This document shows, piece by piece, positions 38,590 through 54,084 of a stretch of DNA of 54,084 bases. The stretch is from positions 4,905 through 58,988 of the forward strand of contig HF991803.1 of the NCBI GenBank assembly GCA_000431535.1, written 5' to 3'. The notes below the pieces were generated by a model. It did not search any database, had not been told where the DNA came from, and saw only the letters and a program-made list of their open reading frames with translations. A program made the position numbers and the translations under genes. This DNA is from Clostridium sp. CAG:678. GTDB taxonomy: Bacteria > Bacillota > Clostridia > Oscillospirales > Acutalibacteraceae. The stretch's first letter is position 1, and each line of letters begins with the position of its first letter.

Positions 38590-39972
38590 TTAAAGCGGTT
38601 GAACAAGGCGAACGTTTTGGAGTTTGATATCCTCGTCTTCGGCGTTTGCGGCTTTGCCCTCAAAGCGCAGCAGTTCCAGATTTTCCACATCCGCGGCGTC
38701 AACAGCGTGCTTATACTGATCGCACGGATTGCCCCAGGAAGTTTTGGTTTTCATAATGGTGATATCCTTTGCGTTTCGGATAAAAAACGCCGAATTATCC
38801 TGTTTTTCAACGCCCCAGTCCAAACACGGGCGCAGGTCGTAAAGGCCGCAGGGCCACTTGCTGGTCTTGGTCAGTTCTATGCGGCAGTTCTCAAATGTAA
38901 CATCCTCTATGGGGTTTTCCTCGCTGCCATGGATCAGAACGCCGTTTTCACCCTTTGCGGTAACATTAAAGAACCGGATGTTTTTCACTTTGCCGCTCTT
39001 TGTGTTTTCATCGCGGTTGAACGAAGTAATGGTGATCGGCTCCGCTGTTCCCCACCAGTCCGGGCAAAAGCGGCGCGTTTCGATCATGATATTGGAATAA
39101 GACACATTTTCTACATTACCGCCGTCCCGGATCTGAATGGAAAGACCGCGGTTTGATCTGCTGATCGTGCAGTTTGAAACAAGGATATTGCGAAAATCGC
39201 CAACGCCCTCCGTGCCGATCTTGATCGCGGCAGAGGTGGAGATCAGGGTGCAGCCGTCGATCACCACATTTTCCGTTGGGCCGTATTCGCTGTTGCCGCG
39301 CGAAGTTTTCAGGCAGATACAGTCATCAGCGCAGGTGATATGGCAGCCGAGTATGCGCACATTGGAGCAGTGATCCGGGTCAATCCCATCGCTGTTGGCA
39401 ACATCCAGATCATTCAGGATGCGGATCCTGTCTATCAGCACATCGTCGCAGCCTGCGGGATGCAGCGTCCAGAAAGGCGCGTCCACAACGGTGAAATCCT
39501 TAAAAGTGATATGGTTGCTTTTCTCTATGTAGATCACAGTTGGGCGCGGGTAAAAATCGCCCGTAACATAATACTGATCCTTGCGCTGCACAAACGCGTG
39601 GCCGTTTGCGTCAATGGTGCCCTCCCCGCTGATGGTGCAGTGATCCGCCTCAAAACCATAAATAAACACAAAACTCGGTTTGCCTGTAACGGGATTGCCG
39701 ATCAGTGCCGTTTTAGGATCATTGATCAGTTTATTCGGCCGGATATAGCCGTCTATATTCGAAGTGGCTTTTATGGAAGCGCCCTTTTGAATATGCAGAT
39801 CCACATTCTTTTTCAGGCGGATGGAATCGCTGTAAAACACATGGCCGCTCTGCAAAACGACCCTGCCGCCGCCGTTCTTGGCGCAGTCATCTATAGCGTG
39901 CTGAATGGCAAACGCGTCATTGGTAACGCCGTCACCCGCGGCGCCGTACTGCAAAACATTGTATTCTTTCAT
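38590..39972 (-). CDS. GH28-like right-handed beta-helix protein
   Basis: Related to polygalacturonases. The 460-residue product has the beta-helix repeats with an N-terminal YGAAGDGVTNDAFAIQHAI. Two catalytic motifs are kept, NSDGIDPDHC and ADDCICLKT, but the usual GHG is SAA (AAIKIGTEGVGDFRN) and the usual RIK is IQIRDGG. There is no signal peptide, so it should act in the cytoplasm on imported oligosaccharides. The open frame continues upstream to 40017; the ATG at 39972 begins MKEYNVLQYGAAGDG, normal for the family. It is monocistronic and shares a promoter region with the divergent FAD gene. Confidence 0.85.
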   Translation of the reverse strand: MKEYNVLQYGAAGDGVTNDAFAIQHAIDDCAKNGGGRVVLQSGHVFYSDSIRLKKNVDLHIQKGASIKATSNIDGYIRPNKLINDPKTALIGNPVTGKPSFVFIYGFEADHCTISGEGTIDANGHAFVQRKDQYYVTGDFYPRPTVIYIEKSNHITFKDFTVVDAPFWTLHPAGCDDVLIDRIRILNDLDVANSDGIDPDHCSNVRILGCHITCADDCICLKTSRGNSEYGPTENVVIDGCTLISTSAAIKIGTEGVGDFRNILVSNCTISRSNRGLSIQIRDGGNVENVSYSNIMIETRRFCPDWWGTAEPITITSFNRDENTKSGKVKNIRFFNVTAKGENGVLIHGSEENPIEDVTFENCRIELTKTSKWPCGLYDLRPCLDWGVEKQDNSAFFIRNAKDITIMKTKTSWGNPCDQYKHAVDAADVENLELLRFEGKAANAEDEDIKLQNVRLVQPL

Positions 39973-40005
39973 AAGATCATAACCTTTTTTATTTAAGATG
40001 ACTAT

Positions 40006-40034
40006 AATATAACACAATGCCTTTGGTTTGACAA
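40006..40034 (-). promoter_or_regulatory. promoter of the GH28-like gene
   Basis: Minus strand TTGTCA (40029-40034), 17-base spacer, TATATT (40006-40011). Its -35 box overlaps that of the divergent promoter at 40028-40056. Confidence 0.75.
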
Positions 40035-42453: not shown

Positions 42454-42477
42454 AAAAAGGGGCGCCGAAGCGCCCCC
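42454..42477 (-). terminator. terminator of the cohesin/dockerin operon
   Basis: On the minus strand GGGGCGC-TTCG-GCGCCCC followed by TTTTTC: a stable tetraloop stem and T-run. It lies about 70 bases after the short peptide gene. Confidence 0.88.
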
Positions 42478-42548: not shown

Positions 42549-42668
42549 TTAAATTCCGGGTACGTGACCCTCTTCTGTGCCTGAATCTGGCTCACCAGAT
42601 AACGTAAGGACATCAACAGACTGGAACTTTTCAATCTCCGCAATCGGCTTTGAGTAAATCTCTTTCAT
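42549..42668 (-). CDS. 39-residue acidic leaderless peptide
   Basis: Too short for usual gene finders but well supported: AAAGGAGG lies seven bases before the ATG, and the gene follows the surface-protein gene within one transcript (92-base gap with a hairpin) and precedes a strong terminator. The product begins MKEIYSKPIAEIEKF, continues QSVDVLTLSGEPDSG and ends TEEGHVPGI. It has no signal peptide, no membrane segment and no cysteine; a charged amphipathic N-terminal half is followed by a Gly/Ser/Glu-rich flexible half. The pattern Y-x-KP-x3-E followed by DV-x-T-x-SG recalls short unnamed proteins seen in gut Clostridia and Bacteroidetes. A modified-peptide precursor is possible, but no maturation enzyme is nearby. 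Confidence 0.72.
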   Translation of the reverse strand: MKEIYSKPIAEIEKFQSVDVLTLSGEPDSGTEEGHVPGI

Positions 42669-42701
42669 TGAAAGACCTCCTTTACTTTTAGCCTTTACAC
42701 A

Positions 42702-42723
42702 CCCGCGGAGTTGCCCCCGCGGG
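42702..42723 (-). other. intercistronic hairpin
   Basis: CCCGCGG / CCGCGGG stem with an eight-base loop, between the surface-protein gene and the 39-residue peptide gene. No T-run follows on the minus strand, so it more likely blocks 3' decay or marks a processing point than ends transcription. Confidence 0.55.
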
Positions 42724-42760
42724 AGTTAAGCTGATTTGTTCACGAAAACAACCTGCCGAA

Positions 42761-45481
42761 TTAAGCGTCGTAATCGTAGGACTGAACATCTGCATAGTAA
42801 ACAGCAGCGTTGCCCTCTGCATCCGCAGCGATCACATAAGCGCGCGCATACGCTACGCCTGTCTGAGCGGTAATGCCGAATGTAAGCGCGAACTGACCGT
42901 CACCGGCAGTGTTGCTGTTCTTGTAAAGGTAGCAGGAACCTGTTGTTGCATTCTCAAGAACAAGATCTGTTTCCGGAGCGGCAAAGTCTTTACCGTATAC
43001 AAAACCGGATTCAAGAACCGTGTAGCCGGCAGGAACATTTCTTGTTGCAAGGAATCTTACCTCACCGCTTTCTGTAGGCGTTACATCTACAGCAGCAACG
43101 GTGGGAACAGCAGTTACTTCACCAGAAGTGAACGCTACTTCTACATCAGATGTTACATAGAAGGTGTATTCAGCGCCGTAAGCAGCGTTGTTGCCGTTTA
43201 CAGTCCAAGCCGTTGCCGTGCCCTCTGCAGGAGCAACTGTTACAGCCTGATCGAATCCAACTTCAGCAGTATCATTATAAGTGCTATCACCAACTGTGAT
43301 TACACAGCCGGGAGCGCTTACTGTGTAAGTAAGCTCAGCATCCTTAGCATAGTAAGCAGTTACAACTGCGTTTGCTTCAAGAGCTTTCACCTCTTCAAGG
43401 CTCATGCTCCAGTTTGCAAATGTGTAGCCAAGGTAATCATAAGTTTCAGGCATTGCCTCAAGAGAAGCAAGTTCTGAGCTTGTAACGGTATCAAGTACCA
43501 TGTTGAACTGATCAACAAAGGTTACGGTAAAGTCATCCGTCTGCTCTGCAAATACAGGAACATAGGTAAGGTCTGCATAAGCAGCCGTTGTGTATGTTGC
43601 ATCTGTAGAGATCAGCTTGCCGTTTACGCTCCAGCCAACGAATTCAGCAGCCTCAGCAGGAGAAGCAACAAGCGTGTATTCCTCTTCATAAGGAACTTTC
43701 TGAGCCTCGCCGGTTGTTGGCGCGCTGTTCAGGGTTGTTGAGCCAAGTTCGTTCTGCTCTACCGTGATCATAACGCCGAGCGCAGGAATTACTTCACCCG
43801 GAGTTACAACCTGATGACAAGCGGAGCAAACCGTATCGCCCGTATAACCGTCTTCGCCTCTGGTGGCTTCCTTAACGGTTTCAGGATCAAGCGCAACATC
43901 GCCCTCATGGTTGTTCGGGTCAAGCGCGCCCTCTTCCGTATACGTATCATCGCATCTGGAACAGGTGTAGGTTACCTTGCCCGCTGTTACGCAGGTTGCG
44001 CCGGTGGTTTCTGTGATCTGATAATCATGGCCGAGCGCAGGAATCTCTTCCTGTGCAACGATAACCGTGCTGCAAGCCTCGCAATGTGAACCTTCGGTAA
44101 GACCGGCTGTTGTGCAGGTAGCCGCAACAGCTGCATCCGTTACAACACTTGCATGGTTATTCGGATCGATTTCGGTTTCTTCCGTCATCGTATCGCCGCA
44201 AACGGAGCAAACGTATACGTTTTCACCTTTTGCTACGCAGGTAGCAGCCGTGGAAAGTTCTTCGCTGAGCTGATAATCATGCTCGCCTGCCGGAATGGTT
44301 TCGCCGCCGGTCTGATAACCGCACTTAGAGCAGGTCATAACCGCGCTTGTACCGTCGATCAGCTGGCCGTCCTCATGAACAGGAGGCGTTGCAGGCGTTG
44401 TTTCCTGCATATCACAATCCTCGGTTACAGGTGTGGCAACTTCGGTGTATTCCGTAGTGCCGTCTACCCACTCCGGCCAGGAATAGGTGGTGTACGTATG
44501 CGTGCCGTCACTATTAGAAACGCAAGCGCTGTCCGCTGTGTTCGCAGGAGCCTGAGGCGCTTCGCCGGCAGGAGCAGTTACCTGCTCTGTATGCAGATCC
44601 GCAAAGGTGTAAGTATAAGTTACTTCTTCGGGTTGCGGAGCTTCAGGTCCAGTAATACCCCACTGCGGAAGTGTATAAGTGGTATAACCTAAATCCTGAA
44701 CCTTTTTACCTGCGTTGACACCAGCCGGAAATACTGAGTCATACATATACAGGTATTTATCAAAATTACTCGGTACTGTTTCGATTTGGCTATATGTGGT
44801 GGTACCTACAGGCTGGAATACTTCTGTAATATCGATTTCCTCATCCGGATTCACAAGCTGGAAACCAAATACATTTACAATATAACCATCATAAGTACAG
44901 TTTTCAGGATCATCGCCCCATGAAAGGTCTGTCTGCTGAATAGGAGCATAATCGCGGCAAGAACCTGTTGCAATCATAATGGTTCCTTCTTGTCTAATCA
45001 GAGCCGCATTGGATCCGCCATCCATCAACGCTTCACCGTTTTCAGAGTATTCATCGCAAGTTACAAGCACAGCATTTTGCCCATACTCTGTTCCTGCGTT
45101 GATTGATGAATTTGTTCTGTAATAAGCCGGAAGGACTTTAGAAGTATCGTAGGTCCATCCGACCATATATCCGCCGCCGATTTGGTCAACGTTTTTTATT
45201 GTGACTGCAATAGCAAACATACCATCATCACCAGATGACAAGTCATCCTTGTTTAAATGATGAATATCTGTTATCTCTGCGCCAGCCGTGGCGCTGTCAT
45301 AGCCCCATGCATTTCTGCCATCATAATCGAAAAGATAAATTCCAACTTCAACATCGTAGTCTGTGCACATTGATCCATCTTCGTTATCAGGATTTGGCAG
45401 AGCCATAGCAGAAAGTGGCGTGCTTAAGACAACCATCAGAGCAGAGAGTAAAACAGCTAAAACTTTGCGTAAGTTTTTCAT
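42761..45481 (-). CDS. secreted protein with cohesin-like domain and tandem Cys-motif repeats
   Basis: A 906-residue surface protein. It has a signal peptide (about 1-28, cut after AMA), a cohesin-like beta domain (about 40-245, with FAIAVTIKNVDQIGGGYMVG, YDTSKVLPA and VNVFGFQLVNPDEEI), a Pro/Thr-rich linker, then four or five repeats of about 40 residues (about 380-575) with ATC-x(8-10)-C-x2-C and IPALGHDY or DPNNH, like zinc ribbons. Two to three beta-repeat modules follow (about 580-780, InlB/Flg_new-like, with FVGWSVNG and GYTFANWSMS), and a C-terminal beta domain ends in YYADVQSYDYDA. There is no dockerin, LPxTG, or enzyme domain. It lies 16 bases after the cohesin/dockerin gene. Confidence 0.82.
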   Translation of the reverse strand: MKNLRKVLAVLLSALMVVLSTPLSAMALPNPDNEDGSMCTDYDVEVGIYLFDYDGRNAWGYDSATAGAEITDIHHLNKDDLSSGDDGMFAIAVTIKNVDQIGGGYMVGWTYDTSKVLPAYYRTNSSINAGTEYGQNAVLVTCDEYSENGEALMDGGSNAALIRQEGTIMIATGSCRDYAPIQQTDLSWGDDPENCTYDGYIVNVFGFQLVNPDEEIDITEVFQPVGTTTYSQIETVPSNFDKYLYMYDSVFPAGVNAGKKVQDLGYTTYTLPQWGITGPEAPQPEEVTYTYTFADLHTEQVTAPAGEAPQAPANTADSACVSNSDGTHTYTTYSWPEWVDGTTEYTEVATPVTEDCDMQETTPATPPVHEDGQLIDGTSAVMTCSKCGYQTGGETIPAGEHDYQLSEELSTAATCVAKGENVYVCSVCGDTMTEETEIDPNNHASVVTDAAVAATCTTAGLTEGSHCEACSTVIVAQEEIPALGHDYQITETTGATCVTAGKVTYTCSRCDDTYTEEGALDPNNHEGDVALDPETVKEATRGEDGYTGDTVCSACHQVVTPGEVIPALGVMITVEQNELGSTTLNSAPTTGEAQKVPYEEEYTLVASPAEAAEFVGWSVNGKLISTDATYTTAAYADLTYVPVFAEQTDDFTVTFVDQFNMVLDTVTSSELASLEAMPETYDYLGYTFANWSMSLEEVKALEANAVVTAYYAKDAELTYTVSAPGCVITVGDSTYNDTAEVGFDQAVTVAPAEGTATAWTVNGNNAAYGAEYTFYVTSDVEVAFTSGEVTAVPTVAAVDVTPTESGEVRFLATRNVPAGYTVLESGFVYGKDFAAPETDLVLENATTGSCYLYKNSNTAGDGQFALTFGITAQTGVAYARAYVIAADAEGNAAVYYADVQSYDYDA

Positions 45482-45497
45482 CTAAAATTTTACCTCC

Positions 45498-46646
45498 CTA
45501 TGCAGTAATAACGGTATTTGCATATAAAAGATCTGCGCTATTCATTCCCATGAAATTCATGTAGTTCGTCATATCACCAACAGCAATATCACCACTTAAA
45601 TCAACATCAATGCCAACATCATAATTTTCATTAGTTGAGTTGATGCCTAAGTTATTCACATATATGGTGAAATCACCTACGGAAATATCATCATTTCCGT
45701 CCCAGTTGCAAGCAACGATACCGACCATGGTGTCGGACTCAACGTCCGCACCGTCAACGATGATCGTAAACGTTCTGGCAAAGCCGTACTTATACGTAAC
45801 AGTTGCGATGTACGTACCGTTCGGAACCTTTTCCAGAACAAATTTACCGGTTGAGTCGGTTACCGCGCTGATCGGTGTTCCGTCTTCTGTTTCGATGGAA
45901 ACCGTTGCGCCGGTAGTGGCATACGTGCCAAACGCATCATCCGGCGCTGCAAGCGCGCCTATATATGCAGATACTGTATAATACTGCGTCAGATCCGGCG
46001 AAAGATCACAGGTCATAGGGTACACCGTTGCCTGATAAGATTCGGGTGCAGACAGAGCGTAGCAATCAAAAACCACATTCGGCCAATCCCCCTGTGTATC
46101 GCCGTAATCCACATCAATAAAAGTTAAATTCGGGTCTGTATTTACTGTGATAACATCCTGCATATCAACGGGGGCATCCCCTTTTACGGTTATGCCGATG
46201 GTAAGAAGATCTGCGCCGTTATCGGAAAGAACGGTTTTATCCGGATTTTCAGTAACCAAAAAGAAACTGAATGTGCCGTTTAGGCGATCCATGACCGCGC
46301 CGTTCATTTCCTCTTCATACGCCGCTGTATCTGAAAGGAGTTCTTCCCCAAGAAGATCAAAAGAAAGCAGATCTTCCTGATAAGAAGCGGTAAATCCCAG
46401 TTGAGCGATGGAATACAGATCTGAAACAGAAATGACCATATCATAACTGCCCGGTTGCAGGGCATTGCCGTCATAAACCGTTCCGAGATCATCCATATAA
46501 GCGGCAGAAATTTCGGGCTTTTGTGTGCCGAGCGCACCCTGCTGCGTTTCCGCACTAACGGCTTGCGGACCGACGAAAGCGGAAACAATTGCAGTGAAAG
46601 CGGCAAAAACTGCACACAATCCCTTTTTTACCTTGATATGCTGCAT
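45498..46646 (-). CDS. secreted cohesin-like/dockerin protein
   Basis: A 382-residue protein with a signal peptide (about 1-31, cut near VSA), a cohesin-like beta domain (about 40-205, with SYDMVISVSDLYSIAQLGFTASY and DLLTIGITVKGDAP), a carboxypeptidase-regulatory-like beta domain (about 225-305, TGATVSIETEDGTPISAV, STGKFVLEKVPNGTY) and a C-terminal type I-like dockerin (about 310-370). Both calcium loops are intact: NWDGNDDISVGD and DVDLSGDIAVGD. Having both a cohesin-like domain and a dockerin, it could act as an adaptor. The last 150 residues are almost the same as the end of the giant protein encoded upstream. GAGG lies eight bases before the ATG. Confidence 0.85.
   Translation of the reverse strand: MQHIKVKKGLCAVFAAFTAIVSAFVGPQAVSAETQQGALGTQKPEISAAYMDDLGTVYDGNALQPGSYDMVISVSDLYSIAQLGFTASYQEDLLSFDLLGEELLSDTAAYEEEMNGAVMDRLNGTFSFFLVTENPDKTVLSDNGADLLTIGITVKGDAPVDMQDVITVNTDPNLTFIDVDYGDTQGDWPNVVFDCYALSAPESYQATVYPMTCDLSPDLTQYYTVSAYIGALAAPDDAFGTYATTGATVSIETEDGTPISAVTDSTGKFVLEKVPNGTYIATVTYKYGFARTFTIIVDGADVESDTMVGIVACNWDGNDDISVGDFTIYVNNLGINSTNENYDVGIDVDLSGDIAVGDMTNYMNFMGMNSADLLYANTVITA
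45541..45980. repeat. 440-bp direct repeat, copy 1 (regulatory-like domain plus dockerin)
   Basis: Pairs with 46766-47205 without a single insertion or deletion; I judge nearly nine bases in ten identical, with most changes silent. Both copies code for the beta domain and dockerin at the C-terminus of their proteins. Confidence 0.92.
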
Positions 46647-46685
46647 AAACTGACCTCAAATAAACTTCCTGTAGTAATTACTGCA

Positions 46686-46707
46686 TCCGGCGGGTTACCC
46701 CGCCGGA
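46686..46707. other. intercistronic hairpin
   Basis: Nine-base perfect stem TCCGGCGGG / CCCGCCGGA with loop TTAC, in the 76-base gap between the giant-protein gene and the cohesin/dockerin gene. No T-run follows directly in the direction of transcription, so an mRNA stability or attenuation role is more likely than full termination. Confidence 0.6.
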
Positions 46708-46722
46708 CACTTTTTTAAACTT

Positions 46723-49700
46723 TTAGTTTTGAATAGTTGTGTTGTGATATTGAACTGATCCAGTATTCATTCCCATGAAATTCATATAGTTCGTCATATC
46801 ACCAACAGCAATATCGCCACTTAAATCAACGTCAATACCAACATCGTAATTATCGTTAGATGAGTTAACGCCTAAATTATTCACATATACAGTGAAATCA
46901 CCTACGGAAATATCATCATTTCCATCCCAGTTACATCCAACGATGCCAACCATTGTGTCGGACTCAACGTCAGCGCCGTTAACAACGATCGTAAAGGTTC
47001 TGGTAAAGCCGTACTTGTACGTAATCGTTGCCTCATACGTGCCGTTCGGAACATTTTCAAGAACAAATTTACCCGTTGAATCGGTTACCGCGCTGATCTG
47101 TGTTCCATCCTCGGTTTGGATGGAAACCGTTGCGCCTGTGGTTGCATAGGTGCCGAACTCAGCATCCGGCGTTGCAAGGGCGCCTACATATGCAGATACC
47201 GTATAGCCTTCCGGCTCTACTGCGCCTGCAACAGTAAGTTCGTTTTCAGCACGCATAAGCGCGATCTTAAGACCGTAAACATCAGAAACCTGAAGTGTAT
47301 ACTGATCTTTATTTGCCGGCTGATAAATGCCGGACGCAGCATACGGATATGATGAGTTGCCCTCTACAGCAGCATTCACTGCATTATCAAGAGCAACGAT
47401 GAAGTTATGCCAGCTACCCTCTGTGTAAGTAACGCCATCCGGGTTATTATCAGCGGTATAGGTAGCACCGTCTACTGAATAAGAATCATCTTCGGTATTT
47501 ACAATTACAGAAGTATAAGAAGTACCGGTATAATCCTTATTTTCGCTTGATTTACCGTTTACTGCGCAGGAGATTTCTTCCTCAAGCTTATCGCCGATAT
47601 AACCGCGCTCGGTTACAACAGCAAGATAAGTATCAAACAATCTTTGCGCTTCTCTGAGTTCAAAGGTTGTTGCAGAAGAGGAAGCAACGCTGCTCTCCTC
47701 AACAGTTTCTGTTACGAAATCTGAAAGTTCATATTCCGTTTCATTTGTTGCGTTGTAAGAAGCAAGCTCATCCTCTGCTTCAGAAGCAAGGCAGGAGAAC
47801 GCAAGCTGTGGTTCGCCATCTACATCAATGTAGTAATTATTGAAATAATCTACAGTGATAAGCGCCTCTGCAGCACGGCCTGCGGCAGCCATGTTTTCAT
47901 AGCTTACAACCTCAAAGTCTCTGTTATCAAGGCCGGATCTTACTACAGCAACATTTTCATAAACATCTGTGCCGTAAGAAACATTCAGATGCTCATTAAC
48001 AAGCTGTAAAGCATATTCTGCTTTATCAGAAGCGGATGAAATAGCACCGCGTAATGCAGGATCATCAACTATGCCGTAAGATGTTTCGGCAAACTTGAAT
48101 CTCCAGTCAGGATCTGTTGAAGACGTGGAAGCGTTAGCAGTATCTCTGTAAGTAAATGAGATCTCATTATAATACAGGTTGCCTGCCGCGTCTGACGCCT
48201 GAACATCCGAATCAACATAATACGGAGTCTCAAGCAATTCGCCGCTGCCACTGCCAAGATCAATCCATTCTTTCTCATACTGAACAGCATTCAAAAGATG
48301 ATATTGCGCTTCAGCATCCACACCGGGTTCTCTTACATAGATAGCCTTAAGATCTGTGCCGTCAAGGCTATATACAGTATAATCCTGAGCCGTACCGCTG
48401 ATATTCAGTTTAACAGTTTCCTTTGTTTCGGTAAGGCCGTTGCCCGGAGTTGCCTTTACATTGGTAAAGATAGGATTGTCATAAACCGCAACGCCGTCGC
48501 TGTCTTCATAACGGGTCATATAATATGTACCGTTATCAAGGTAAGCCTCTACACGAAGCGAAGCAAACGTATCGCCGTCCAACTCAGAAGCTGATGCAAC
48601 TTTGTAAGCCACATCACCGATCGGATTGGTTGTGCTTGTATATACGGTATTATTTGCTTTTGTAGTACCATACTCAAGCGCGTTATCCGTTGTGATCGGA
48701 TACTGCTGCGCAGCAAGAACTTCCATAACTGCATCATTGAAGTAGTTATAAACATTGATATCATCAACGTCCGAACTTGTGTAGTTGTTGAGGAATTCTA
48801 CAGAAGTTTCGTAAAGAGATGTAGCTCTTTCGATTTCACCTGTATCGTCCGCAACTGTAATAGGCATCCCGAAAGTCTGAGGATAATCACTGATTATACG
48901 ATAACCAAAGTCATCTCTGCCCTTGGTTGTGCCGGCAGTTACCTGAGTTTCCTGATCCCATACAAGGAAGTCCATTCTCTGGCTGGAGCCGTTGGTTTCA
49001 ATCCTGTTAAACGCAAGAACAAGTCCCGGAATGCAAGATGAAAGTGAAACGTCGCCAGACTGTGTTCTTGAATAATCAAGAACCGTTTTATATTTGCCGC
49101 TGTCTATCGGCAGCCAAATGATGCTGTAAGAGCCGTCTTCTGCCATTTCTGCCTGATGCTTACCGGGCGCATAGCCGTCAGCAAAAGTAAACGTATCGAT
49201 CTGCTCATACGGGCAAACTACATGGAATCTGTAGTCCGTAACCGTAATATCGCTTTCCATCAGATTCATCATATCTGTTCTGTTAAGCGGACTGTTGGTT
49301 ACCCACTGACCGTTCTGATAATAATCATAATAGAATACGTTTACAAGGTCTCCGGTTGCCGGATCACAAGTAACGGCGAAGTAATCCCCGTCGCTGAAAG
49401 ACTTAACAGCAGCAATGCCGTCAATAGGTTTTCCCGTTGTTTCGTTATAAAGATAAAGCGGATAATTGATGTTATCAAGATCAGAAGTTCTGATAATCAT
49501 CTCGTTCGGATACTGAACATTACCGTAATCCTTGAAAATCCTGCCATCTTCAACAACACGATATGTCATTGAAGAATAGGTGCCTGAAGCGGGATCATAT
49601 CCGGCGGAGAACTGCTGAGTAAATCCGCTTCCGCTTGAAGGATCGTAAGTAAGGTTATACCAGTCATTTACTGTAGTTAAATAGTAATACAGTTTCTTGG

Positions 49701-52700
49701 TAAACGTTTGATCATAGATGCTGCCGTAGCCGCCGTAAGGCGTATTACCGTCTTTCTCTACGATTCTGTAATTAACACTAAAGGTTACGATTGCTTCATT
49801 TGAGCCGCCGAAAGCAGCCTGGTCAACAGAACCGCTTACCATAAATGAAGTGGATTTTTCCGGAGCGAGCAGAGAATCATAATTGCCATAATTAAAGGAA
49901 CCTTTATCAGCATTGATGCTTTCGATCTTAATATAAGAACGACTGAGCTGATCGTATCCGCCTGAACCATTCTGGATATAACGGTTGATACCATGGCCAA
50001 GATTCTCTAAAGACATATTAAATGTAAACTGTTTGTTATAGGAATAAGATGAAGTTGCGCTGTTATCCTGAGCAACGTCAAGATCGCCTACTTCATAATC
50101 CTGCAGCTGCGGAGCAAACGCAGGAACGAAACTTGCTACAGCCTGAACTGCAAACATTGCGCCATCCCAGATGGATTCAGGATAGCCGTTGTAGCCTGCG
50201 GCTTCGCAGAGATTTACAACAAATTTACCGAATATACCGATATCAGAATCATCGCCTACTTTACCGCCCAGAACATCTCTCTGGATCACATCGTGGAACG
50301 GATGATTCGTTGTAGCATCCGGAATTACGTGCTGACCATGATAATAAGAATTACTATAACGTGAATCCAGCACACTGTTGATCAGATCTTTTACAAGATC
50401 ATAAGCAACAAGATCTACCGCTTTAGTGGTGATAGAAGGCGCGTTGATGATGGACGCAAACTTATAAATGAAGTTTGTGATACCGCCGGCGCCTGTTTCT
50501 TCATGATTTGAAGTATCGCCAATGTCAAGAACGCCTGAAACGATATCGTTCCAGATCAGATCCTCTGAATCAAACTGACCGGCTTTTGAAGAATCGCTGA
50601 ACTGAAGTTCACCAAGAACCGGAAGAATCGAATTTGCGATAAGATCAATATTCTGCCAAATGGTATTTTGATTTGTAATAAGACAATTATTACTTTCATC
50701 AATGATGCCAAGAAGAGAAGCCACGCCCTTGTCGTTCGCATAATATACGATTACAGAATTAAGAAGGGTGAAAATATCCGTCTTGGTATCCAACTGCTGC
50801 TGATAGGTCTGCGCAGTGTCTACATCATAGATGCTCCAAGCATTGCCGTTGCCGTCCTCAACCGGAACGTACTGGGTCATAACATAACCTACAGCATCGC
50901 GGCACATAGCAAGGATCGTATTCAGATCCACATTGTAATAGCCGCTCTCATCCTTTGCGATCATAGAAGAATAATCAAGGTGAGGAAGAATATCTGACAG
51001 GTATTCTTCAAGCGCTACTGCAGCTACGCCTTCCGCATCGTTGCACGCATCCCATTTATCCTTATGAATCTGGCCAAGAAGACCATCAAGGTTGTTTTCA
51101 AGGCAAGCAATAAGGAACGGAACCATTGCTTCTTCAAAGTTTGCTTCCGTGAGCGGCATGCCGTCGCCGTTATTATGGTAGAATGCAGAAAGGATATTTT
51201 TATCCGTAGCATCCGCAACATACTGAACAACTTTAAGCGCATTGTTTACAAGCGTTGTTGCAACAACTGAAGGTGTGGAATCATTGCCGGTAACCGTAAG
51301 AGACCCTGCGTCAAACTCAGGCAGGAAATCCTTAACCGCAGCTACAAGGAAGTCATTCAGACCGCCAAGGAGCGAATCGTAATTTGCATACTGCTCGCTC
51401 ATAAACTGATCGATATTCGGCGTACCTGTGCACTTGAAGTTCGTATTCAGAGGGCCGGTTTCCGCTTTGAAGTAGTAAACCATCAACGGGCTTCTGCGAA
51501 GTTCATTGAAGAGCTTTGTGGAATCAATATCTCTCCAGTTGTAAGCAGCATCTGCAATAACGTTTCTGTCATATGTAAGATCCTGTTTAACCTGTTCAAG
51601 ATCAAGTCCGAACTCACTTGCCCATTTTTCTACATCAGTTGCAGTGTAGTTTGCCTCAACATCATCGTAATCCCAGGTCTTGCCCTGCGCAAGATACCAT
51701 TCTGTATAATCCCAGTCATAATTTTTAACAGCTGAGTTTATAAGTTTGATAGTTGGCGAAAGAACTGTTTTCCAAGCAATTTCAAACGCCTCATAAGCAA
51801 AATCCGAAAGATTCGATGTTGCAGTCAGTGTCAGATTGGCATCATCCGTGCCGTCTTCATCTTCATCATACTGGAAAATGTAAACATTTCCGTCATCCGT
51901 ATAACAAAGATTCGGATCCGTTATACCTTGTTCATAAAGGTCACGGGAATTTGTTCCGTCAGGATAGGTTACCTGCACATTGATCTGCTGCAAAAGATTC
52001 TCGCTGAGCGCCTGGAAAAGCACGTTATCGAGTTCATATCCCGCATCACCGTTATAGATGTGGTTTGCTTCTTCTTCGTTAAACCAATCGGTTTTGCTTG
52101 TAATGAGCTTAGCTACGATATGGAAAACAAGATTGTCCTGATAACCGCTCGGAAGCGCTTCGCCGAAAAGGCTGCTGAAAAGGTTATCATTAAGAAGCTG
52201 CCAGATATCCACACCTACCCATTCCTGAACAATTGTGCCAAGATTAAGCTGGCCGGTAAGTACCTGCTTGAGCAGCGCATGACTGTTATCCCAGTTTGCA
52301 GTGTTTCTGTAAACCGTAGTGAAGAGCGCTTTCACAATATCCTTTGCGGAATTGCTGGCTCTGTAATCTTTGCCGCAAGCCGGATAACTACCCGTCGCAC
52401 CGGAATAACTGAGATCCGCAATATCATTCAAATTGATATTTTTCGCATCTCCGGCCATACCCAGAAGGAATGAGTTGCCGTCAAGGAAATCGTCAAGCTG
52501 CGCAACGATATCCAAAAGGCCGCTTACACTGTCTATCGTGCCGTTAATATTCAACGTTGTTACCACAATATTGACATTCAGATTTACCGGAATGGCAAGA
52601 TCTGCAAGCACGGAATCCAAATAATCAAGCAACGCCTCAGCAGTCTGATCATCTGTGAGCTCTACCCAACCGAGCGAATTGACCTGATCGCTGGTAAGAG

Positions 52701-52821
52701 AATCATCGTGATACGGTGAATCACTTGCCGCAAAGGCTGTAAGCGCGCCGGAAAAGGCAGTGAGGGACATTACAACCGCGAGAAATAAAGCAAGCAATTT
52801 TTTGCTAAACTTATTTTTCAC
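46723..52821 (-). CDS. giant secreted dockerin-bearing protein of unknown function
   Basis: A 2032-residue product. After the signal peptide (about 1-31, cut near AFA) come about 900 residues rich in helix and Asn/Asp (repeated patterns such as LLDYLDSVLADL, LLDIVAQLDDFL, LLGGLNDFLVAAV, FLIACLENNLDGLLGQI), then a beta-rich region (about 960-1500), a mixed region (about 1500-1880), and the shared C-terminal beta domain and dockerin (about 1885-2020, loops NWDGNDDISVGD and DVDLSGDIAVGD). No catalytic domain was recognised. The longest frame starts at ATG 52836, but that ATG lies within the ribosome site; GTG at 52821, eight bases after GGAGG, begins a normal signal peptide MKNKFSKKLLALF. First gene of the operon. 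Confidence 0.85.
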   Translation of the reverse strand: MKNKFSKKLLALFLAVVMSLTAFSGALTAFAASDSPYHDDSLTSDQVNSLGWVELTDDQTAEALLDYLDSVLADLAIPVNLNVNIVVTTLNINGTIDSVSGLLDIVAQLDDFLDGNSFLLGMAGDAKNINLNDIADLSYSGATGSYPACGKDYRASNSAKDIVKALFTTVYRNTANWDNSHALLKQVLTGQLNLGTIVQEWVGVDIWQLLNDNLFSSLFGEALPSGYQDNLVFHIVAKLITSKTDWFNEEEANHIYNGDAGYELDNVLFQALSENLLQQINVQVTYPDGTNSRDLYEQGITDPNLCYTDDGNVYIFQYDEDEDGTDDANLTLTATSNLSDFAYEAFEIAWKTVLSPTIKLINSAVKNYDWDYTEWYLAQGKTWDYDDVEANYTATDVEKWASEFGLDLEQVKQDLTYDRNVIADAAYNWRDIDSTKLFNELRRSPLMVYYFKAETGPLNTNFKCTGTPNIDQFMSEQYANYDSLLGGLNDFLVAAVKDFLPEFDAGSLTVTGNDSTPSVVATTLVNNALKVVQYVADATDKNILSAFYHNNGDGMPLTEANFEEAMVPFLIACLENNLDGLLGQIHKDKWDACNDAEGVAAVALEEYLSDILPHLDYSSMIAKDESGYYNVDLNTILAMCRDAVGYVMTQYVPVEDGNGNAWSIYDVDTAQTYQQQLDTKTDIFTLLNSVIVYYANDKGVASLLGIIDESNNCLITNQNTIWQNIDLIANSILPVLGELQFSDSSKAGQFDSEDLIWNDIVSGVLDIGDTSNHEETGAGGITNFIYKFASIINAPSITTKAVDLVAYDLVKDLINSVLDSRYSNSYYHGQHVIPDATTNHPFHDVIQRDVLGGKVGDDSDIGIFGKFVVNLCEAAGYNGYPESIWDGAMFAVQAVASFVPAFAPQLQDYEVGDLDVAQDNSATSSYSYNKQFTFNMSLENLGHGINRYIQNGSGGYDQLSRSYIKIESINADKGSFNYGNYDSLLAPEKSTSFMVSGSVDQAAFGGSNEAIVTFSVNYRIVEKDGNTPYGGYGSIYDQTFTKKLYYYLTTVNDWYNLTYDPSSGSGFTQQFSAGYDPASGTYSSMTYRVVEDGRIFKDYGNVQYPNEMIIRTSDLDNINYPLYLYNETTGKPIDGIAAVKSFSDGDYFAVTCDPATGDLVNVFYYDYYQNGQWVTNSPLNRTDMMNLMESDITVTDYRFHVVCPYEQIDTFTFADGYAPGKHQAEMAEDGSYSIIWLPIDSGKYKTVLDYSRTQSGDVSLSSCIPGLVLAFNRIETNGSSQRMDFLVWDQETQVTAGTTKGRDDFGYRIISDYPQTFGMPITVADDTGEIERATSLYETSVEFLNNYTSSDVDDINVYNYFNDAVMEVLAAQQYPITTDNALEYGTTKANNTVYTSTTNPIGDVAYKVASASELDGDTFASLRVEAYLDNGTYYMTRYEDSDGVAVYDNPIFTNVKATPGNGLTETKETVKLNISGTAQDYTVYSLDGTDLKAIYVREPGVDAEAQYHLLNAVQYEKEWIDLGSGSGELLETPYYVDSDVQASDAAGNLYYNEISFTYRDTANASTSSTDPDWRFKFAETSYGIVDDPALRGAISSASDKAEYALQLVNEHLNVSYGTDVYENVAVVRSGLDNRDFEVVSYENMAAAGRAAEALITVDYFNNYYIDVDGEPQLAFSCLASEAEDELASYNATNETEYELSDFVTETVEESSVASSSATTFELREAQRLFDTYLAVVTERGYIGDKLEEEISCAVNGKSSENKDYTGTSYTSVIVNTEDDSYSVDGATYTADNNPDGVTYTEGSWHNFIVALDNAVNAAVEGNSSYPYAASGIYQPANKDQYTLQVSDVYGLKIALMRAENELTVAGAVEPEGYTVSAYVGALATPDAEFGTYATTGATVSIQTEDGTQISAVTDSTGKFVLENVPNGTYEATITYKYGFTRTFTIVVNGADVESDTMVGIVGCNWDGNDDISVGDFTVYVNNLGVNSSNDNYDVGIDVDLSGDIAVGDMTNYMNFMGMNTGSVQYHNTTIQN
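46766..47205. repeat. 440-bp direct repeat, copy 2 (regulatory-like domain plus dockerin)
   Basis: Collinear with 45541-45980 at a constant offset of 1225 bases. The copies mark a recent duplication or ongoing gene conversion of the C-terminal module between neighbouring genes. Confidence 0.92.
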
Positions 52822-52919
52822 AAATTTTACCTCCATGATTTTAAATTACTAAATGAAGTTTTTCCAAAACCGATATTCCGCATTCTGACCACCGGGCAAT
52901 CCGAATTAATGCAGAAAAC

Positions 52920-52935
52920 AGCCGGAGACCCGGCT
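52920..52935 (-). other. leader hairpin of the giant-protein operon
   Basis: AGCCGG-GTCT-CCGGCT on the minus strand, followed by GTTTTC, about 40-60 bases after the predicted start site. It may be an attenuator in the leader of about 157 bases; the T-run is short. Confidence 0.4.
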
Positions 52936-52984
52936 ATTCACAATCGGATATAATAGGATAAGATAGATTACTCCATTTACAACC

Positions 52985-53013
52985 ATTAAATCACACCGTG
53001 AAAAAAAAGTCAA
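52985..53013 (-). promoter_or_regulatory. promoter of the cohesin/dockerin operon
   Basis: Minus strand TTGACT (53008-53013), 17-base spacer, TTTAAT (52985-52990). The rest of the AT-rich stretch 53014-53403 shows no convincing gene; it holds three TTCCGCA copies (near 52876, 53224, 53271) of unknown meaning. Confidence 0.6.
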
Positions 53014-53403
53014 TATTAACAATTAAGAAATAAAATTTTTGGCAGTTTCGCTGAAATTACAAGTTTCGTTTTGTGTATTTTGACATCAAGCAATTTAATA
53101 ATTTGTTCATTAAAAATTTATTAATTTTTTACATTTGTACATTTTCTACATATTACTTTCCGTATTTTATTGTAAATGCTTTTTCCTTTACACAACAACA
53201 TATAGTATATATTTTGACAGGATTCCGCATTTTATGCTCTACTGTGTAAAGTTGATCTGCCTAACAGCAAAATTCCGCAGAATTTGATTTTTTTCACATT
53301 TCCCAACTGCCTGAATTAGGAAATTGAACCTAAATTTCGGAAAACGGCTTGTTTCTTTCGTGCACTTTGACGATCAAATGTGAACTGGGTGTTAAAAAAG
53401 GTG

Positions 53404-53432
53404 TTGACTTCTTTTCTTATATTTGGTATAAA
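53404..53432 (+). promoter_or_regulatory. promoter of the right-end secreted protein gene
   Basis: TTGACT (53404-53409), 17-base spacer, TATAAA (53427-53432). The transcript would have a leader of about 140 bases. Confidence 0.7.
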
Positions 53433-53449
53433 TAAATTGTATTGTTCGT

Positions 53450-53551
53450 ACGCGTGGATATTTTGCGCCCAAAAACAGGAGAAGGTTTTCAAATGCATTG
53501 AATCCAACCTGTATTTCGGCGGTATCCGTGCGTTGGGAAACCTAATCCCAA
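53450..53551 (+). promoter_or_regulatory. long structured 5' leader
   Basis: An 11-bp closing stem (ACGCGTGGATA at 53450-53460 with TATCCGTGCGT at 53523-53533, two G-T pairs) encloses nested stems CGCC/GGCG, ACAGG/CCTGT and TTCAA/TTGAA separated by internal loops. A second hairpin TTGGGA/TCCCAA (53533-53551) sits just before the ribosome site. The nested layout resembles a regulatory RNA, but no known class was recognised. Confidence 0.5.
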
Positions 53552-53577
53552 AATCATATAAAGAAGGAGAGATGATT

Positions 53578-54084
53578 ATGAAAACGAGCAAACGGTTACT
53601 CAGCTTTTTCTTAGCTGTAGTAATGGTGATCACCACATGCTCCGTTGGGTTCGCGGCATTTGCGGCGGACGACCCGGAAAATCAGGTTTTCACCTACGTT
53701 GACGACGAAGGCCGTGCCGTTGAACTTACATACGACGGGCTCAACGACCTTGTCAACACATATGCGCCATTGCTCATAGAGGCTTTAAGAGGCACTCTTG
53801 AAGGAATCGGCGTTAATGTGGATGCCATACTGGCGTCCGAAAATCCGATAGGAGAATTATTGGGGCAATTGGCTCCTACCCTTCTCGGACTTTTAGGAAC
53901 GTCCGCAACGCCGGAGTCCGTTCTTGGATCAAAATATGATGCTTTTTCTGAGAAAAAGTACGCTTATCTTGACGATCCGGACGCGGCGATGGATTTCTGG
54001 AATCTTTACACAATCTGTAAAGATAATGCTGATGCCGGGGGAGAACTCGGCAAATTCTGCAGCGAAACCCTTCCTAAATTAGAC
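53578..54084 (+). CDS. secreted protein, 5' part only
   Basis: The first 169 codons of a gene that runs off the window. The signal peptide MKTSKRLLSFFLAVVMVITT...FAAFA (about 1-31) has the same FLAVVM core as the giant protein across the intergenic region. Behind it lies a helical, Leu/Gly-rich stretch (LNDLVNTYAPLLIEALRG, ELLGQLAPTLLGLLG) similar in character to the N-terminus of the giant protein, so it may be another member of the same surface family; a dockerin would be expected at the missing C-terminus. AAGGAGAG precedes; ATG at 53578 is preferred to an in-frame ATG two codons earlier because of spacing. Confidence 0.8.
   Translation, partial: MKTSKRLLSFFLAVVMVITTCSVGFAAFAADDPENQVFTYVDDEGRAVELTYDGLNDLVNTYAPLLIEALRGTLEGIGVNVDAILASENPIGELLGQLAPTLLGLLGTSATPESVLGSKYDAFSEKKYAYLDDPDAAMDFWNLYTICKDNADAGGELGKFCSETLPKLD

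Follow-up and report, generated by a model that had tools for sequence, protein, structure and literature searches.

The window that we analyzed is a 54,084-nt stretch from the uncultured gut bacterium Clostridium sp. CAG:678 (assembly GCA_000431535.1, contig HF991803.1, positions 4,905 to 58,988). It contains three neighboring genes for secreted proteins, here named C, B, and A, and the start of a divergent gene, D (Table 1). A first-pass annotation of this DNA had described the same arrangement as an operon with a divergent neighbor, and the ORF list places all four genes at the coordinates given there. The gap between C and B spans 76 bases and holds a hairpin, whereas that between B and A measures 16 bases. 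A terminator-like site follows A, with no excess of such sites across the region (8 found versus 10.7 expected from shuffles). A, B, and C each have one hydrophobic segment, located N-terminally, and a search of the three for an LPxTG-like signal or a C-terminal membrane segment revealed none.

Table 1 Features of the locus (positions are those of the window)
Feature	Coordinates	Strand	Basis
Terminator-like site 3' of A	42458..42477	-	Consensus match
Gene A, cohesin-like receptor with Cys-motif repeats and C-terminal region, 906 aa	42761..45481	-	
Five CxxC motifs of A	43817..44332	-	Motif search
Type II-like cohesin region of A	44672..45394	-	Profile match, co-divergence
Gene B, adaptor, cohesin-X-dockerin	45498..46646	-	382-aa ORF, profiles, fold
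Dockerin of B, two calcium loops, triplets SVG / AVG as in C	45540..45728	-	Profile, loop reading
X module of B	45729..45986	-	Pfam scan, profile, fold
Cohesin fold of B, residues 42-216	45999..46523	-	AlphaFold2 model
Hairpin in C-B gap	46686..46707	.	Hairpin search
Gene C, giant secreted protein, 2037 aa	46723..52836	-	ORF
Dockerin of C, two calcium loops, recognition triplets SVG / AVG	46726..46947	-	Profile, loop reading
X module of C, CarboxypepD_reg-like, below Pfam cut-off	46948..47214	-	Pfam scan; PDB XDoc match
Start of gene D, divergent giant secreted protein, running past the window	53572..54084	+	ORF

The D ← → C-B-A layout recurs in relatives, which answers a survey of locus conservation that had been named as a check. 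Judged by the profile of the C N terminus, the giant C is encoded in 52 of the 80 genomes of the genus, to which Eubacterium coprostanoligenes belongs. Across 40 loci, B is present in 34 (the misses being five contig ends and one real absence at the locus, L107), D in 38 (both misses are contig ends), and the A cohesin profile is matched in 26. B and C occur together in 51 loci, 39 of which we retained as distinct; a gene lies directly 3' of B in 37 of these 39. Removing L080, in which B is cut by a contig end, gives a set of 38 species, and the co-divergence set of 34 species leaves out L022 (no A), L080, L089, L104, and L105 (A under 530 aa).

A stretch of N in the contig interrupts D, in which neither a dockerin nor a cohesin family was found. 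D had been taken for a relative of C, a proposal that fails: in profile-profile comparison of the relatives' proteins, none of the 20 segment pairs exceeded a probability of 1.4%, leaving no relation beyond the signal peptide.

Domain identities of A, B, and C

The AlphaFold2 model of B contains a cohesin fold, as the first-pass annotation had supposed when it named the lack of such a fold as grounds for refutation. The best structural matches found by Foldseek are fragments of CipA. Two features of this search count against the two-tier docking that we propose below, namely the low whole-model TM-scores (0.26-0.32) and the Gram-positive pilins and adhesins that come next among the matches at E 1e-6 to 1e-5. 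Compared with PDB sequences, the B cohesin profile retrieves one cohesin at E 0.069, beneath an unrelated row at 0.007; the assignment of this domain to the cohesins rests on its fold.

By sequence, B and C both end in X-dockerins related to the type II XDoc. An X module is followed by two calcium loops with D/N-like residues at positions 1, 3, and 5 and D at 12, the arrangement by which we recognize a type II X-dockerin. Both loops, NWDGNDDISVGD and DVDLSGDIAVGD in B, are present in B and in C, and the two dockerins of the window are 81% identical. With a profile built from the B X-dockerin and its relatives, PDB chains are matched at 1.6e-14; the C profile matches XDoc at E 6.3e-9. The former match, together with the recurrence of the layout in relatives, argues that these features are not due to chance. 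Among the relatives, PF00404 detects the dockerin in 7 of 12 B proteins (E ≤ 0.1) and in 10 of 14 C proteins (E ≤ 0.05); it leaves the window's own B and C dockerins unreported, which counts against the two-tier reading. The cohesin-X-dockerin order of B agrees with its proposed role as an adaptor at the level of architecture.

C consists of a mostly helical N-terminal region, a middle region, and the C-terminal X-dockerin, and it corresponds to the giant dockerin protein of the first-pass annotation (2037 aa from ATG; 2032 from GTG at codon 6). An AlphaFold2 model of residues 37-925 (pLDDT 75.0, pTM 0.70) finds no counterpart in the PDB at E ≤ 0.001, and no enzyme family was convincingly matched when 14 C and 11 D proteins were scanned with Pfam.

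The start of A, described earlier as cohesin-like with Cys-motif repeats, is by sequence profile a type II-like cohesin: its N-terminal profile retrieves 15 cohesin rows from the PDB at E ≤ 0.011 (best 7.4e-10), in alignments that cover about 40-50 profile positions. This profile matches nothing in the genome besides A. The number of CxxC motifs ranges from 0 to 11 depending on species. An LPxTG-like motif occurs in the last 60 residues of 0 of 37 A proteins, and SLH domains are absent among the families from a Pfam scan of 12; that no anchor was seen on A counts against the two-tier reading.

We also examined the genome as a whole (98.49% complete, 41 contigs). PF00963 has no match over its cut-off, its one sub-threshold match (E 0.29) lying outside the locus, which counts against the two-tier reading; it matches homologous copies of B or A weakly (E 0.004-0.07) in 3 of 13 relatives. 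Because PF00963 missed the cohesins of the window, a Pfam-based survey can miss cohesin-dockerin loci of this kind. No multi-cohesin scaffold was found in the genome, which has one A-type and one B-type cohesin (very divergent ones may escape). Three further proteins carry an NAR dockerin, two of them LRR proteins and the third a 391-aa protein; in two of the three, a single loop is recognizable, below the Pfam cut-off, which counts against the two-tier reading. B, C, and these three have no enzyme family over the Pfam cut-off (weak dockerins elsewhere may escape). Since neither a multi-cohesin scaffold nor a docked carbohydrate enzyme was found, we do not class the locus as a cellulosome, in keeping with the earlier view that it is not an ordinary one. 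A GH28-like ORF lies at 38590-40017, 2.5 kb from the start of the annotated interval and beyond other genes.

In dockerins outside the locus, position 11 is mostly K or R (31, of 42 or 44 loops). This sample comprises 40 of 80 PF00404 matches, picked by hand, 36 of them with a canonical loop; the loop filter counted N at position 9, and dropping it leaves the position-11 count at 31.

Recognition residues and co-divergence

Within each genome the recognition residues of the two dockerins are locked to each other, but between species they are hypervariable. Between B and C of the same genome, 265 of 304 positions match (shuffles average 48), and the 38 species have 34 distinct loop-1 triplets in B. 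To our knowledge this observation is new; a literature search judged by titles and abstract beginnings found no description of the locus or the code. The calcium-loop positions themselves are D/N/S/E in 92-100% of species at positions 1 and 12, 82-92% at position 3, and 97-100% at position 5. Several details count against the two-tier reading: positions 10-11 are common to all four loops in only 20 of 38 species; the dockerins of B and C resemble each other less (41-47%) in L040, L045, L046, and L048 (E. coprostanoligenes); and L045, L046, and L048 have a degenerate second C loop.

In the 34 species, divergence of the A cohesin tracks that of both X-dockerins (partial r 0.57-0.74). The end of A shows no such co-divergence, and the B cohesin correlates with the X-dockerins only weakly (0.22-0.34). 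This contrast points to A, rather than B, as the probable receptor, private to each species, that B and C would both bind through their dockerins. The middle of C correlates with the X-dockerins at.16-.32. Because cohesins and dockerins co-vary while much of the remaining sequence of A, B, and C stays similar between species, the data suggest a species-private docking system of three neighboring secreted proteins, distinct from an ordinary cellulosome. Against the two-tier reading, only 0-4 of 2000 permutations reach the correlations of the B cohesin or the C middle.

A candidate docking mechanism and its rivals

We favor, with fair confidence, a two-tier extracellular docking system in which A receives B or C and the cohesin of B takes cargo. 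The single type II-like cohesin of A would bind the X-dockerin of either the adaptor or the giant protein, and each species would have its own pairing, as suggested by recognition residues that agree within one genome and shift from species to species along with the A cohesin. The slower-changing cohesin of B may bind a different, more conserved class of dockerin or other cargo, probably proteins with NAK/NAR-type dockerins, which in this genome would be the two LRR proteins and the 391-aa protein. A would thus display either C or B plus its cargo, possibly at the cell surface, where large helical and LRR proteins might serve adhesion or a matrix.

An unlikely alternative is that C and D are uncharacterized degraders of glycans, proteins, or mucin in a small cellulosome-like machine. 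Both are large, conserved proteins in which many polar and aromatic residues are invariant, and a mucin-degrading cohesin-dockerin system has been reported in the gut genus Limousia (PMC12997984); the Pfam scans without a convincing enzyme match, the N-terminal model of C with no PDB match, and the genome with no multi-cohesin scaffold found speak against it. We think it improbable that B polymerizes, each cohesin taking up the X-dockerin of a second B molecule to form a chain A-(B)n with C as its cap. Such a polymer would suit B, the one protein with both modules (A contributes a cohesin alone and C a dockerin alone), as well as the likeness of the two dockerins; Amy4 of Ruminococcus bromii, also a cohesin-dockerin protein, is proposed to self-aggregate (PMC5814915). 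Also in favor of the polymer, the B cohesin correlates with the B dockerin at.34 in 34 species and at.67 in a 12-species run, the latter value counting against the two-tier reading.

Linkage offers a quite improbable account, in which an imported tract carries the B X-dockerin with the adjoining A cohesin, gene conversion copies X-dockerins between B and C, and binding is not under selection. Adjacency in the DNA means that linked replacement could add to the correlation of these two modules, and the nearly identical dockerin DNA of B and C in L087 (71 of 78 codons) and L105 (72 of 78) fits gene conversion. However, the A signal peptide between the two modules stays conserved (89% in L100/L101), the conserved B cohesin separates the X-dockerins of C and B, and, among 13 species compared, L023, L093, and L106 retain the code despite synonymous changes in 30, 23, and 22 of 78 codons. 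Drift after loss of function, which would fit low between-species identity and the three degenerate C loops, is very improbable given the conserved calcium-loop positions 1 and 12 and the code locked between B and C.

Relation to known systems and significance

B shares its module order and matching folds with the C-terminal Coh-X-Doc of CipA from Clostridium thermocellum, and by profile the A cohesin and both X-dockerins of the locus group with the type II partners, CipA XDoc and anchoring cohesins. Unlike the CipA system, the locus has one cohesin per protein with no multi-cohesin scaffold found in the genome, no cellulose-binding or catalytic family was found in A, B, or C, and no SLH or LPxTG anchor was seen on A.

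The portions of the literature consulted describe several partial parallels. Ruminococcus albus has a lone adaptor that has been compared to R. flavefaciens ScaC and is an ortholog of ScaF. Like B, it combines a single cohesin with a dockerin in a genome where other cohesins are absent or nearly so; R. albus, however, has 58-90 dockerin proteins and many enzymes (PMC4081043), compared with two at the locus and three NAR proteins here, with no recognized enzyme. The amylosome of R. bromii likewise belongs to a gut bacterium with few scaffoldins and a cohesin-dockerin protein, but its dockerins are on amylases and two scaffoldins have sortase signals (PMC5814915). The Limousia mucinolysome, also a gut system not for cellulose, has multi-cohesin scaffoldins with docked enzymes; its genome search relied on Pfam models (PMC12997984). 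ANME archaea have cohesins and dockerins without cellulose degradation, and multi-cohesin scaffoldins are said to be absent; they are archaeal, and the account as consulted does not describe a fixed D/C-B-A locus or locked code (PMC9012536).

Most mesophilic cellulosome clostridia, two species excepted, are described in a survey as sharing general dockerin recognition residues that were unchanged in speciation (PMC5748583). The genus that includes E. coprostanoligenes has the opposite pattern, in which a receptor module and two ligand modules change in step. A cohesin-dockerin locus can carry giant proteins of no recognized family. The genus supplies dozens of natural Coh-XDoc pairs, matched and mismatched, from which the rules of specificity could be read and orthogonal connectors drawn, and in it the idea that gut species assemble proteins privately can be put to the test. 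More tentatively, selection may diversify the A cohesin and the X-dockerins of B and C among neighboring gut species. If so, the secreted giants would assemble on their own kind alone, neither captured by close relatives nor capturing from them, and cohesin-dockerin pairs would make up a bacterial self-recognition system.

Layout and distribution of the locus

ORF calls on the window reproduced the four reading frames of the first-pass annotation (see table), along with its operon layout. C, B, and A share the minus strand, separated by gaps of 76 bases (C-B) and 16 bases (B-A), and a terminator-like site lies past A. The window corresponds to positions 4905-58988 of contig C18 of genome G000 (2.39 Mb, 41 contigs, completeness 98.49%), and D, which an N stretch in the contig interrupts, extends past its end. 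A hairpin in the C-B gap could affect the relative expression of C and B. A GH28-like ORF (PF00295, E 9e-28) lies close to, and outside, the interval 42549..54084, and contig C40 of the same genome encodes a further large secreted-looking protein, interrupted by an N run.

Positions of the features discussed
Feature	Sequence	Positions	Strand	Description
A	window	42761-45481	-	receptor-like, with cohesin (A-Coh)
B	window	45498-46646	-	adaptor: cohesin (B-Coh), X module (B-X), dockerin (B-Doc)
C	window	46723-52836	-	giant secreted protein ending in X module (C-X) and dockerin (C-Doc)
D	window	53572..	+	giant secreted protein
Hairpin	window	46686-46707		C-B gap
GH28-like ORF	window	38590-40017	-	PF00295
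C homolog	L107	4321-9912		lacks X-dockerin
Giant protein	L114 (G000, contig C8)	9793-15999		Big_2/FIVAR
Large protein	L115 (G000, contig C40)	9785-14322		secreted-looking
Giant protein	L026	10500-15728		C-terminal dockerin
Giant protein	L027	9018-13940		C-terminal dockerin

A first scan with B as the query matched 7 of 200 family genomes, own genome counted. A profile of the C N-terminal region matched 8 of 394 genomes in an order-wide sample, every one within the window's family: four strong matches in the same genus, among them the window's own genome, and four that are weak and partial. Within the genus, which also contains E. coprostanoligenes ATCC 51222, the profile matched 52 of 80 genomes (34 of 51 good genomes). 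The survey of locus conservation bore out the arrangement, with D divergent in 38 of 40 fetched loci and B following C in 34. Missing D or B reflects contig ends with a single exception, L107, where C stops at the expected X-dockerin start and the locus contains neither B nor A, representing either a natural loss or an ancestral state.

Across species, A carries between 0 and 11 CxxC motifs, which are therefore not essential. One ORF type, presumably P-type ATPase-like from its sequence, occurs downstream of A in three species (L043, L044, and L047, the last with intervening ORFs), and may be a calcium pump beside a calcium-dependent system. Pfam scans found no convincing enzyme family in C or D. 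The model of the N-terminal region of C (pLDDT 75, pTM 0.70) consists mostly of helices and has no match in the PDB, and the second half of D contains internal repeats. Neither LPxTG-like motifs nor membrane segments at the C terminus were seen in A, B, or C, which leaves their cell attachment putative.

Dockerin code within and between genomes

We compared calcium-loop positions 9, 10, 11, and 14 in 38 species having both B and C dockerins; PMC5748583 names positions 10, 11, 17, 18, and 22 as clostridial specificity determinants. B and C of the same genome agree at the four compared positions in 92, 79, 87, and 91% of comparisons, and loops 1 and 2 in 86, 81, 72, and 83%, versus merely 20, 14, 10, and 11% between genomes. 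Pooled B-C agreement reached 265 of 304 cases, against a mean of 47.9 and a maximum of 88 in 5000 species shuffles. In 35 of 38 species, B agrees better with the C of its own genome than with that of the nearest relative, and in no species does it agree less well; only 3 of 32 species pairs with C N termini at least 60% identical have B loop 1 positions 10-11 in common.

In some genomes, such as L087 (71 of 78 codons identical), the B and C dockerin DNA looks recently homogenized. Other genomes retain the code in spite of numerous synonymous changes; in L023, 30 of the 78 dockerin codons are identical, 30 synonymous, and 18 different. The lock is imperfect: positions 10-11 are common to all four loops in 20 of 38 species, and it is looser in L040, L045, L046, and L048 (E. 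coprostanoligenes).

Co-divergence of cohesins and X-dockerins

Between-species distances from 34 species, after partialling out that of the N-terminal part of C, define one co-diverging set comprising A-Coh, B-X, B-Doc, C-X, and C-Doc (correlations 0.51-0.74). The C-terminal part of A falls outside this set (-0.07 to 0.19), although it belongs to the same gene as A-Coh. B-Coh (0.22-0.34) and the C middle region (0.16-0.32) correlate weakly with the set, both still above nearly all permutations. An earlier 12-species run gave the same order for correlation with the C X-dockerin (A-Coh.67, B-Coh.23), but also a correlation of.67 between B-Coh and B-Doc. Linkage alone is insufficient to explain the set, because the conserved A signal peptide and B-Coh separate its segments.

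The pattern is directly visible in the identities between closely related species. Between L100 and L101, they are 84-96% for the C body and 49% for C-Doc, 95% for B-Coh and 60% for B-Doc, and 53-64% for A-Coh and 74-88% for the remainder of A. For L078 and L086, B-Coh is 70% identical, the X-dockerins 20-31%, A-Coh 21-25%, and the remainder of A 34-81%. In L093 and L095, whose code is identical, A-Coh reaches 77-83% and the remainder of A, which is incomplete, 55-66%.

Possible cargo of B and relation to cellulosomes

By profile, the window's genome holds one A-type cohesin, one B-type cohesin, and two clear X-dockerins. It also encodes three apparently secreted proteins that bear GYINARD dockerin loops. 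Two of these are LRR proteins, each with a single recognizable loop that falls under the Pfam cut-off, and the third, of 391 aa, has two loops. A canonical loop is present in 36 of 40 dockerin regions taken from outside the locus in 13 related genomes; of the 43 loops in these regions, 20 have NAK and 2 have NAR at positions 9-11, and 31 have R or K at position 11. By elimination, these sequences suggest that B links a more conserved dockerin class via the slower-changing B-Coh. No PF00963 cohesin scores above cut-off in the window's genome; 4 of the 13 relatives (L050-L053) have such cohesins elsewhere than the locus, some adjoining dockerins, so the elimination is valid only for genomes like the window's. 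The Big_2/FIVAR giant of L114 adjoins an LRR protein with a GYINARD loop, and the giants of L026 and L027 stand beside ORFs that we take to be sigma factor-like and regulator-like.

By analogy, the locus would work in the manner of the CipA C terminus with its type II anchor, cut to one cohesin each. The first-pass annotation had held that this is not an ordinary cellulosome, and we concur in not filing it as one because a multi-cohesin scaffold and docked enzymes were sought in its own genome and neither was found. We found no description of a fast, locked specificity change in the literature searched, where subscription journals are sparsely covered. PMC5748583 reports that dockerin recognition residues are preserved in most mesophilic clostridia, whereas here we see the reverse, a rapid and locked change of specificity, and this is the unusual part of the system.
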